Positions 27,986 to 32,232 of a stretch of 64,000 bases of DNA are shown one piece after another (position 1 is the stretch's first letter; the number at the start of each line of letters is the position of its first letter). The position numbers and the translations under genes are program-made. The notes below the pieces were generated by a model. It was given only the letters and a program-made list of their open reading frames with translations, was not told the DNA's origin and did no database searches. The DNA comes from Bacteroidota bacterium. Lineage in GTDB: Bacteria > Bacteroidota > Bacteroidia > Chitinophagales > Chitinophagaceae. Where the stretch lies: positions 62,001 to 126,000 of the forward strand of contig VGGR01000002.1 in NCBI GenBank assembly GCA_016868585.1. Direction: 5' to 3'.

Positions 27986-30900
27986 CTAAAAACCTTTGGA
28001 TTTTTTAGCAGTGGCGGGGAGCTTCTTGGCTATTATTTTCCTTTCTCCTTTGATAGTGGCCGCTAACTTCACGGCTTCAAAAGCATTTAGTATTCCTCCG
28101 GTTTTGGATAGCTGATCAAGTGTTGTAAGCGTACCGGTACCAGGCGTGCGAACAGCATCAGTTAGGGGGACCGCAGAGCGTTCAATCACATCTTTTATCT
28201 GTATAGCGCTCAATGTTGGGTAATATTCAAGCAGCAGTGCGGCTAGTCCCGCAACCACAGGAGAGGCCATACTGGTACCTTGTAAAAATTGGTATCTATC
28301 GCTGCCGGATGCCGTAGAATAAATTTTTACGCCTGGAGCAAAAACATCAACTTCCCCTTTTCCGTAGTTGGAAAATCCTGCAGCGATTCCTCCGGTGAGT
28401 GGGTCGCCACTGGCGCCAACAGTTATCCAATTAGCCGCTCGATTTTGGTTTACGAACAATGAACTGGGATAATTGTAGTTGGAATCAAGATTTTTACCAT
28501 CGTTGCCTGCCGCATGCACCAGGAGAACGTCTTTTTCGGCTGCGTAGGCAACGGCTTCGTCAATCCACTTTTTTTCTGGTGAGAAGCTCTTTCCAAAACT
28601 CATATTAATAAGTTGAGCGCCATTATCTACCGCATAGCGAATGGCTAAGGCAATATCTTTATCATGTTCATCACCATCTGGAACTGCACGGATGGTCATG
28701 ATGCTTACATTGTCCGCTACACCGTCTCCTCCTTTTCCATTTTCACGGACGGCTCCAATGATTCCACTTATATGCGTTCCGTGCAAGGCAGTCTCCAAGC
28801 TGACCATTACATTGTTATTCCCATAGTACTTATCGTGGATATCATCATAATTGTCTTTAACAACGGACGCTCGGTAGGGAAAGGGCGCTTGGTCTGCAAC
28901 TTTTACCTTGGATTCCAATCCCTCCAGGTAAGCTTGTAGTTCAGCAATAAAACTGATATTGGTAGATTCCAGGGCATCATTATTGGACATTAAGCTGTAC
29001 AAGGCATTTTTTGCTTTTTTCTGGTCTGTTTCATTGACAGTTAGGAGGGCTAACTCTTTTCCTAAGAAAGTGTCTTTGCCCAAGCATTTACGCAGGATGC
29101 TGTCACTTTTGACAAGGTTTGCATAAATTCTTTTTAACATGATCAATTCAGCACCACTTTCGCTTCCTTGTACTATTTCTTGTTTTGCTCTTCGCCACAT
29201 CTCATATCGAGCAAGGCCTTCCGCATTAAATTTAACCAGTGTAGGGTCAATGCTGTCATAAACCTCTTTAAAACGGTGATAGACTCTTGCTGCTTCATAG
29301 GAATCTTTTGTTACATTTTCGCCATTTTTTCCTCCGATAAAATTCCACCCGTACAGGTCATCTATATAGCCATTGTTATCATCATCCTTATTGTTGTTTG
29401 CGATTTCGCCTGGGTTTTTCCAAAACACCGTTTTCAAATCCTCATGTAGTGTGTCTACTCCTGAATCGATTACCGCAACAATTACTCGCTTGCTTTTTTT
29501 ATTGGATTCCTTTAAAAAAGAATAAGCCTTGTCCAGACTTATTCCCCAAAACCCAGTACTGGATCTGTCAAGATGATGCCAACCCTTGGGAACTTCTTTT
29601 ACCAGTGCAGGCATGGGGGTTTCTTGAGCCGTTATGCCTTGATGAACTGCCAAGGAAAATAGCAGTGCTGAAATCGATATACTTTTCATGAAAACATTTT
29701 GTAGATCAAATTTTATCCCTTGAGCCAGGGGAATTTCCTTGCTGTAATTGATAGTATTGGTTTGCCTTCTCATATATATTTTCCAGGCATCACTTCCACT
29801 TTCACGTCCCCCACCAGTTTCTTTTTCGCCTCCAAAAGCTCCACCAATCTCTGCTCCGCTAGTACCTATATTAACATTTGCAATACCGCAATCACTTCCT
29901 GCAGCACTTAAGAATTGCTCAGCTTCTCTAATATTTAATGTCATGATTGAAGAAGACAATCCCTGTGGTACTTCGTTCTGAATAGCTATGGCTTCTTTTA
30001 GCTTTTGATACTTGATAAGATATAATATAGGGGCAAATGTTTCATGGTGAACAATGGGAAGGTTGTGTTTGACTTCAGCGATACAAGGTTTAACGTAACA
30101 CCCACTTTTGTAGGCTTCTCCGTCTAGCACTCCGCCATCCACTATAAACTGTCCGCCAGCTTTTTTGCATTGTTCAATAGCATTCAGATACTGTTCCACA
30201 GCTATTTTATCAATTAAAGGCCCCATGAGATTATTACTATCTAACGGATCCCCAATCCTAATTTGGTTGAAGGCAGTTAGTAGTTTTTCTTTTACCGTTT
30301 CATACACACTTTCTTGTATTATTAGTCTTCGGGTTGTGGTACACCGCTGGCCAGCAGTTCCCACTGCGCCAAAGAGTGCTCCGCGAATTGCTATGTCCAA
30401 ATCTGCTTCCGCCGTAATTATTATGGCATTATTACCTCCTAACTCCAGCAGCGTTCTGCCCAAGCGAGCGCCCACCACGGCAGCCACTTGTTTTCCCATA
30501 CGGGTAGAGCCAGTAGCTGATATCAAGGGGATCCTGTTGTCTGCGGCCAGCCATTCACCCACTTCACGGCCTCCATTGAGGATAACACTAATTCCTTCAG
30601 GAAGATTGTTCTTTTCAAGGACCTCTGCGATAATTTTTTGACAAGCAACAGCACATAGTGGTGTTTTTTCAGAGGGCTTCCATACACAAACATCTCCACA
30701 CACCCATGCCAACATACTATTCCAACTCCATACCGCAACAGGAAAATTAAATGCAGAAATAACGCCTATAATACCAAGGGGATGATACTGCTCATACATT
30801 CGATGTCCAGGTCGCTCACTATGCATGGTCAACCCGTGCAATTGTCTGGATAATCCTACAGCAAAGTCACATATGTCAATCATTTCTTGTACTTCCCCTA

Positions 30901-31222
30901 AACCCTCTTGCAAACTTTTTCCCATTTCATAGGAAACCAGTTCGCCAAGTTGCTGTTTATTCTTTCTAATGGCGTCTCCAAATTGACGCACAATTTCTCC
31001 TCTTTTTGGAGCGGGAATCATACGCCAGGTTTCAAAAGCTGTGGAGGCGGATTGTATAGCTTTTTCGTACTCTAATTTAGTGGCAGGCGAAACAGCGCCA
31101 ATTTTTTCTCCATCTGCCGGGGAATAGGAAAAAAGGGGTGCCTGACCAGACTCTATCCAATTCAGTCCAGTGCTAACTCCAGGATGAGGTAAGGTGGAAG
31201 AAAACCAGTTTGCGAAATTCAT
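27986..31222 (-). CDS. Fused reading frame: aldehyde dehydrogenase (aminoadipate-semialdehyde type) plus secreted S8 subtilase
   Basis: One uninterrupted 1078-codon frame holds two unrelated proteins. Residues 1-507 are a complete NAD-dependent aldehyde dehydrogenase with ELGGNN (Glu260) and the catalytic Cys294 in GQRCTTTRR. They end with the family's usual tail, NYSKEIPLAQGIKFDL, and the family resembles aminoadipate-semialdehyde dehydrogenase. Four junction residues (QNVF) follow. From Met512 there is a full subtilase precursor of 567 residues: a signal peptide (SISALLFSLAVHQGITAQ), then catalytic Asp75 (VAVIDSGVDT), His303 (LHGTHISG) and Ser473 (GTSMASP), numbered from that Met. Roughly 228 residues separate Asp and His. 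A signal peptide buried mid-protein makes a working fusion unlikely. The subtilase is more probably translated from its own ATG. The gene starts 2 nt after the flippase stop. Confidence 0.88.
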   Translation of the reverse strand: MNFANWFSSTLPHPGVSTGLNWIESGQAPLFSYSPADGEKIGAVSPATKLEYEKAIQSASTAFETWRMIPAPKRGEIVRQFGDAIRKNKQQLGELVSYEMGKSLQEGLGEVQEMIDICDFAVGLSRQLHGLTMHSERPGHRMYEQYHPLGIIGVISAFNFPVAVWSWNSMLAWVCGDVCVWKPSEKTPLCAVACQKIIAEVLEKNNLPEGISVILNGGREVGEWLAADNRIPLISATGSTRMGKQVAAVVGARLGRTLLELGGNNAIIITAEADLDIAIRGALFGAVGTAGQRCTTTRRLIIQESVYETVKEKLLTAFNQIRIGDPLDSNNLMGPLIDKIAVEQYLNAIEQCKKAGGQFIVDGGVLDGEAYKSGCYVKPCIAEVKHNLPIVHHETFAPILYLIKYQKLKEAIAIQNEVPQGLSSSIMTLNIREAEQFLSAAGSDCGIANVNIGTSGAEIGGAFGGEKETGGGRESGSDAWKIYMRRQTNTINYSKEIPLAQGIKFDLQNVFMKSISISALLFSLAVHQGITAQETPMPALVKEVPKGWHHLDRSSTGFWGISLDKAYSFLKESNKKSKRVIVAVIDSGVDTLHEDLKTVFWKNPGEIANNNKDDDNNGYIDDLYGWNFIGGKNGENVTKDSYEAARVYHRFKEVYDSIDPTLVKFNAEGLARYEMWRRAKQEIVQGSESGAELIMLKRIYANLVKSDSILRKCLGKDTFLGKELALLTVNETDQKKAKNALYSLMSNNDALESTNISFIAELQAYLEGLESKVKVADQAPFPYRASVVKDNYDDIHDKYYGNNNVMVSLETALHGTHISGIIGAVRENGKGGDGVADNVSIMTIRAVPDGDEHDKDIALAIRYAVDNGAQLINMSFGKSFSPEKKWIDEAVAYAAEKDVLLVHAAGNDGKNLDSNYNYPSSLFVNQNRAANWITVGASGDPLTGGIAAGFSNYGKGEVDVFAPGVKIYSTASGSDRYQFLQGTSMASPVVAGLAALLLEYYPTLSAIQIKDVIERSAVPLTDAVRTPGTGTLTTLDQLSKTGGILNAFEAVKLAATIKGERKIIAKKLPATAKKSKGF
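29687..29701 (-). other. Dehydrogenase/subtilase junction: probable lost stop codon and internal ATG
   Basis: After the dehydrogenase tail GIKFDL the codon at 29701-29699 is CAA, one transition away from TAA. It is followed by AAT GTT TTC and the ATG (29689-29687) that opens the subtilase signal peptide. No Shine-Dalgarno is visible before the ATG, as is usual in this phylum. Reading 27986-29689 as a separate subtilase gene is the simplest alternative annotation. Confidence 0.65.
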
Positions 31223-31224
31223 GA

Positions 31225-32232
31225 TTACAGTTTTATTAATTTTTTTTTAGGCGAGTTAACCCATGGCAACAGTCCAAAACTAATTACTCCTCCACAAAGT
31301 ATCACAGCGGTTTGTACCAGCCATAAAACCCACCCAAATGCAAGTGCATTCGTATAGTCCAGTCCGTACCATTGCATGGTCTGTAAGATCAGGTAGGCAT
31401 ACGCGCCTATACCTCCGGGTGAAATAATCATTCCAATGCTGCCAACAGCAAGAATAGTAAGTGCCTCTGTTAAACCATATATGCGAGTAGCTTCAAAGGC
31501 CATGAAGCCAATATAACCAGAGAGTAGGTACATGATCCAAATAGCCAGTGTCAATAGTAGAAAAATTCGCGGTTTTTGTAATTTTCTAACAGTGAGTAAT
31601 CCATTCAATACGCGTTTGAAAAAAATAAATACTTGTTGAACTATATCGCTTATCTTTTTCTTCTTCCAGAAGATCCAGCTGATGAAGAGCAGCAATAATC
31701 CCACTATTCCCCATATCGCATAAGGATTGTAGGGTGTAGCGGTTGGGGAGTTAGTTGTAATAACCGGATTAACGATGTCATACAAATCTGGTTGGAGTCC
31801 CAGCGTAAAACCGAATACCACTAATAGGCATACCGCGTCAAATAACCGCTCCGCAATAACTGTTCCTACTAATTTCTCAACTTCAACCTTTTCATAGCGA
31901 GAGAGAAAAGTGCAACGTATAAGTTCTCCCAGTCGAGGCATGCCCAGGTTGACCAAATATCCGACCAATACGGTTAAAAAAGAATTAATGGGCTTTATTT
32001 GATATCCCATGGGATCGATCAACAGTTTCCAACGCATCCCCCTTAGATAATGGCTAAGTAATAATAAAACTGATACGGGCATAATCAACCATAAATTGGC
32101 TCGTTGAACAGCAGACTTCAGCTGCACCCATTTTTCCTGGTCCAGCTCTCGCAATGACAACCAGGCAAAGAGTAGTCCAATTACAAAAAAGACTACGTAT
32201 TGTAGGGTAGTGGTTATGAGATGTTTAGACAT
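31225..32232 (-). CDS. Flippase-like integral membrane protein (LPG-synthase TM / UPF0104 family)
   Basis: This 335-residue protein is almost entirely membrane helices, about eight. The family blocks seen are FVIGLLFAWLSLRELDQEKW, LIMPVSVLLLLSHYLRGMRW, VLVGYLVNLGMPRLGELIRC and VGSIGMIISPGGIGAYAYL. The family covers the membrane part of lysyl-phosphatidylglycerol synthase and the AglD/dolichol-type flippases. No catalytic synthase domain is attached, so the substrate is unknown. It starts at the ATG 32232, divergent from the GT5 gene over 55 bp. It is followed after 2 nt by the dehydrogenase-subtilase frame. Confidence 0.88.
   Translation of the reverse strand: MSKHLITTTLQYVVFFVIGLLFAWLSLRELDQEKWVQLKSAVQRANLWLIMPVSVLLLLSHYLRGMRWKLLIDPMGYQIKPINSFLTVLVGYLVNLGMPRLGELIRCTFLSRYEKVEVEKLVGTVIAERLFDAVCLLVVFGFTLGLQPDLYDIVNPVITTNSPTATPYNPYAIWGIVGLLLLFISWIFWKKKKISDIVQQVFIFFKRVLNGLLTVRKLQKPRIFLLLTLAIWIMYLLSGYIGFMAFEATRIYGLTEALTILAVGSIGMIISPGGIGAYAYLILQTMQWYGLDYTNALAFGWVLWLVQTAVILCGGVISFGLLPWVNSPKKKLIKL

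Follow-up and report, generated by a model that had tools for sequence, protein, structure and literature searches.

A probable recent stop loss places an L-piperidine-6-carboxylate dehydrogenase and a subtilase precursor in one reading frame in a member of the Chitinophagaceae

The window analyzed here is a stretch of 64,000 nucleotides from a Bacteroidota bacterium of the Chitinophagaceae (assembly GCA_016868585.1, contig VGGR01000002.1, positions 62,001 to 126,000). On its minus strand, a single frame of 1078 codons (1078 amino acids) runs from an ATG to a TAG between window positions 31222 and 27986. Both Aldedh (residues 22-488) and Peptidase_S8 (residues 578-1021) were detected in this frame with Pfam, in agreement with a preliminary description of the locus that had reported a dehydrogenase and a subtilase in one frame. 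The frame consists of 507 dehydrogenase codons, a CAA (29701-29699), the codons AAT GTT TTC and, beginning with the ATG at 29689, 567 subtilase codons; the CAA at the expected stop position and the in-frame ATG three codons behind it could thus be read directly from the sequence, as had been claimed. The following features were identified:

29702 to 31222, minus strand: L-piperidine-6-carboxylate (alpha-aminoadipic semialdehyde) dehydrogenase half, 507 codons, ending in ...PLAQGIKFDL; assigned with NCBIfam NF050084, Pfam Aldedh and solved chains.
29699 to 29701, minus strand: CAA at the stop position; TAA in the six nearest loci (L009-L014) according to the junction comparison.
29690 to 29698, minus strand: former spacer of nine bases, AAT GTT TTC, now coding for N-V-F; same length and frame in L009-L014.
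27986 to 29689, minus strand: precursor of an S8 subtilase with its own ATG, 567 codons and TAG; assigned with Pfam Peptidase_S8 and the residues Asp75, His303 and Ser473.
29627 to 29689, minus strand: signal-peptide-like start MKSISISALLFSLAVHQGITA, now internal (fusion residues 512-532); recognized from sequence and hydropathy, with similar starts in the nearest relatives.
28784 to 29464, minus strand: stretch from Asp75 to His303, predicted to be mostly helical over residues 132-276; from motif search, alignment and model.

The calculated masses are 117.2 kDa for the fusion, 55.0 kDa for the dehydrogenase and 61.7 kDa for the subtilase precursor, close to the approximately 117 versus 55 plus 60 kDa guessed earlier. 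A promoter and terminator scan returned 11 promoter-like sites compared with 13.0 in shuffles, and five terminator-like sites compared with 5.3, neither number exceeding chance.

The dehydrogenase half scores 828.7 bits against NF050084 (L-piperidine-6-carboxylate dehydrogenase) over residues 33-506, where the curated NCBIfam cut-off is 730, and it contains GQRC at 291 and LELGGN at 259, which we take to be the catalytic Cys and Glu motifs. The closest solved chains are 10fm, the antiquitin 2jg7 and 4x0t, and solved antiquitins cover nearly the whole half. Judged by family membership, residues 1-507 are a complete L-piperidine-6-carboxylate dehydrogenase. The position at which this enzyme ends is nearly fixed across relatives. 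Of the 151 loci with the tail motif, 150 have PLAQGI (in the tail at window 29702-29731), and the remaining one is truncated at a contig end. Both in family 7 and in a Thermus enzyme, LAQ is described as a crook over the substrate tunnel, and the short C-terminal tail of human ALDH7A1 is described as swinging away (PMC6127216). By analogy, the LAQ of this dehydrogenase would be the same crook. For a tetrameric dehydrogenase of another family, a review reports that five added residues resulted in 30% activity and that 17 were destabilizing (PMC8160307).

The subtilase half matches Peptidase_S8 (PF00082) with 168.7 bits at a cut-off of 21.8, and its catalytic set is complete (D75, H303, S473 and the oxyanion residue N396); by this family test it is a member of Peptidase_S8. 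By eye and by hydropathy its first 21 residues resemble a signal peptide, with a cleavage-like site between ITA and QE. The preliminary description had also pointed to an unusually long insert of about 228 residues between the catalytic Asp and His. The measured Asp-His distance of 228 confirms this length, which is nevertheless normal for the family: a motif search of 137 loci, window included, found a distance of 223-229 in 19 of 19 subtilase frames, and 11 relatives align through the insert. The insert is thus a trait of the subtilase family and is ruled out as a novelty. A structure model of the subtilase half alone, built with 12 sequences, has a mean pLDDT of 75.9 and predicts several helices over residues 132-276; with Foldseek it matches ordinary subtilisins, the best being deseasin MCP-01 (E 5.7e-17). 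Relatives of the long-insert subtilase also occur in Bacteroides and Vibrio records. Tandem related subtilase genes, 61-62% and 50% identical to the query, were seen in genome G009 (contig C206, 10028-13428).

To compare the junction, 153 relative loci were read, of which 151 carry the tail motif; one of the 151 is the locus cut by a contig end, leaving 150 readable ends, at least seven of which duplicate a place already counted. Not one of these 150 ends is fused. The stop lies 40 residues from the start of the tail motif in 143 of them, 41 residues in six and 42 in one, and residue 40 is exactly the codon that reads CAA here. The closest relative, locus L009 in genome G010, is 91% identical over residues 1-1078; its junction codons are TTA TAA AAT ATG TAC ATG, and those of this genome are CTA CAA AAT GTT TTC ATG. 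All six nearest loci (L009-L014) have TAA where CAA stands here, and the subtilase ATG follows nine bases on in the same frame; L011 contains an additional TAA inside the spacer. L009-L014 therefore show both things expected if a stop has been lost, namely an ancestral stop precisely at the junction and a downstream ATG in the same frame. The L009 junction and the identical in-frame spacer length bear out the earlier suggestion of a single base change, here T to C (TAA to CAA).

All 42 genomes of the genus match at least one of the two halves: one is fused (this genome), 38 have the junction stop and three (G006, G028 and G030) are unreadable at contig ends. A search across 298 genomes of the order gave, among the matches listed, no further full-length match that lacks the stop, which we use as supporting evidence only. 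An established composite family should show the same fusion in more than one genome; it was found in one of the 42 genus genomes and at none of the 150 readable relative ends, and the same counts rule out an ancient fusion. The preliminary description had named relatives that are always fused, with a second gene lacking a signal peptide, as an observation that would speak against a stop loss; the relatives have separate genes, and the nearest ones have a signal-peptide-like start. A recoded stop or an alternative genetic code is ruled out, since CAA is a sense codon and the junction stop of the relatives is TAA, TAG or TGA.

The pN/pS values in comparison to G010 are 0.073 for the dehydrogenase and 0.179 for the subtilase. 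Against the outgroup G025, pN of the dehydrogenase is 0.048 in this genome and 0.056 in G010, and pN of the subtilase is 0.083 and 0.091, respectively. By these values both halves look constrained, without acceleration relative to G010. Because this genome is no faster than G010 against G025, neither half appears to be decaying, and pseudogene decay is unsupported by pN/pS and by the outgroup rates. With constraint and normal rates, the stop loss should be young, harmless or false; the absence of visible relaxation fits youth and error equally.

As a control of sequence quality, frames of at least 60 codons were compared between 858,873 bases of this genome and 1,167,051 bases of G010. Only one of the 460 compared frames of this genome spans two G010 relatives, and that frame is the fusion. 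The reverse test flagged two of 459 G010 frames and revealed no clear frameshift: one of the two is an artefact of where the sequence was cut at the end of the window, and the other reflects an internal deletion in another part of this genome. A systematically poor assembly is unsupported by these results. The clean control argues against generally bad sequence, but it is no guarantee for one single base. On contig C2 at about 147170-147712, outside the window, a 401-codon G010 frame is reduced to two short frames matching its ends, likely a gene broken by an internal deletion and a frame change.

Neighbouring genes are often arranged such that a fusion is close at hand. Of 722 frames of at least 90 codons in the sampled part of this genome, 72 have another frame of at least 90 codons directly behind their stop and in the same reading frame, and the corresponding number in G010 is 110 of 1027, including the dehydrogenase-subtilase pair; the counted frames are mechanical frames, not checked genes. 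Because about 10% of the long frames sampled here are one base from fusion, the event is ordinary in kind and its precondition common. Since one base exchange in such a stop is enough to join two genes, a fusion needs no special design. In G010, a 343-codon frame upstream (the counterpart of window 31225-32232) lies in the same frame as the dehydrogenase, and thus three consecutive genes there are one base from fusion.

We regard the joined frame as probably a private, recent stop-loss allele of a strain or population, in which TAA changed to CAA and joined conserved neighbours located nine bases apart in frame. Since the relatives keep both genes apart, it is most likely a young mutation, and probably a costly one, rather than a new type of protein. 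Ribosomes starting at the dehydrogenase ATG would read on into the subtilase and produce the 117-kDa chain, and the subtilase would also be initiated at its own ATG, giving the normal 62-kDa precursor. The interpretation offered in the preliminary description is therefore supported in part: a stop loss by one base change is supported, the insert is not unusual, and the alternative of re-initiation with the fusion as a minor product is incomplete. The inner ATG may serve as an alternative start for the subtilase, but the fusion would not be merely minor, because the dehydrogenase has no stop and a ribosome that starts at its ATG and finishes can yield only the fusion.

Family membership and the inner hydrophobic start support a cytoplasmic dehydrogenase and an exported subtilase. 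A hydrophobic stretch behind an N-terminal domain can insert into the membrane as a signal-anchor, with the N-terminus inside and the C-terminus outside. In the fusion, the old signal peptide would act as such an internal signal-anchor, N inside and C outside. Signal peptidase could cut the chain after ITA; the protease would then be free on the outside, and the dehydrogenase would stay at the inner membrane with its hydrophobic tail. Fusion chains that fail to be exported would probably be degraded. Of the two enzymes, the dehydrogenase is more likely to suffer, because the conserved tail at its C-terminus cannot end freely. Swinging of the LAQ tail needs room, so the 571-residue extension should hinder it, and from this analogy an activity cost to the dehydrogenase is expected. 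It is conceivable, though we think it rather improbable, that the sole matched L-piperidine-6-carboxylate dehydrogenase is made only as an inner-membrane type II fusion, which is cut outside to give a tethered dehydrogenase and a secreted protease. If true, the strain would be a natural, living test of an enzyme placed upstream of an internal signal peptide.

The strongest competitor of the stop-loss allele is an error in consensus or assembly, in which case 29701-29699 is a stop codon in the organism and the genes are separate as in its relatives. We consider this unlikely, yet it carries appreciable weight, since the fusion is private to one assembly and every readable relative has a stop there. 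A false gene fusion also has a published precedent: in a stop-loss extension screen in yeast and fly, the one gene fusion described was judged an assembly error, and single-strain alleles were excluded because a sequencing error or a deleterious mutation was considered likely (PMC4494051). Against an error speak the 460 frames compared with G010, in which neither a second fused frame nor a clear frameshift was seen, and the spacer, which differs from that of the closest relative at further bases too, as ordinary divergence predicts. In addition, a lone wrong base hitting a stop in an otherwise clean consensus is, by our own estimate, a priori rare. A real allele is thus well ahead of an error, without certainty, the fusion base being known from one assembly and the species from one genome.

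Far less probable is an adaptive bifunctional protein, with a dehydrogenase tethered to the membrane or delivered together with the protease on purpose. It would agree with the constraint still seen on both halves, and human FALDH, with its C-terminal transmembrane helix, is a precedent for a membrane-anchored aldehyde dehydrogenase (PMC6127216). However, fused ends are absent from the 150 readable relative ends and the state is not spreading in any relative; moreover, the LAQ tail is conserved, and if the family 7 motif over the substrate tunnel needs room to swing as described (PMC6127216), the extension should hurt. The least credible reading is a real base that is functionally masked, with signal peptidase and cytoplasmic proteases quickly releasing enough dehydrogenase to avoid a phenotype: the inner signal peptide with its cleavage-like site lies directly behind the dehydrogenase, but the released enzyme would keep about 25 extra residues, and 5 or 17 were harmful to the enzyme of another family mentioned above (PMC8160307).

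As a private stop-loss allele, the locus is a clean case of a gene fusion by one base, seen before either decay or refinement has set in, and it shows how close many bacterial neighbour genes are to fusion (72 of the 722 long frames sampled here). Annotators should enter the 1078-residue product as a probable stop loss or error and not as a new bifunctional family.

The fusion is a new case of a known type of event, the stop-loss fusion of neighbouring genes. As in the yeast and fly set described in PMC4494051, a lost stop extends a conserved protein, the state is private or polymorphic and errors have to be ruled out; unlike there, what is added is an entire conserved gene from downstream that brings its own signal peptide. 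With NF050084, antiquitin and ALDH7 the dehydrogenase shares a full-length match above the cut-off and the conserved LAQ tail, whereas it has no free C-terminus and all 150 readable relatives end at most two codons from the same place. The Bacteroidota S8 subtilases with long inserts have the same catalytic residues, an Asp-His distance of 223-229 and a signal-peptide-like start, but only here does an in-frame enzyme precede the subtilase without a stop. Compared by description with human FALDH (PMC6127216), the fusion likewise has a hydrophobic segment after the catalytic domain; FALDH, however, belongs to another family and is described without an exported enzyme attached.
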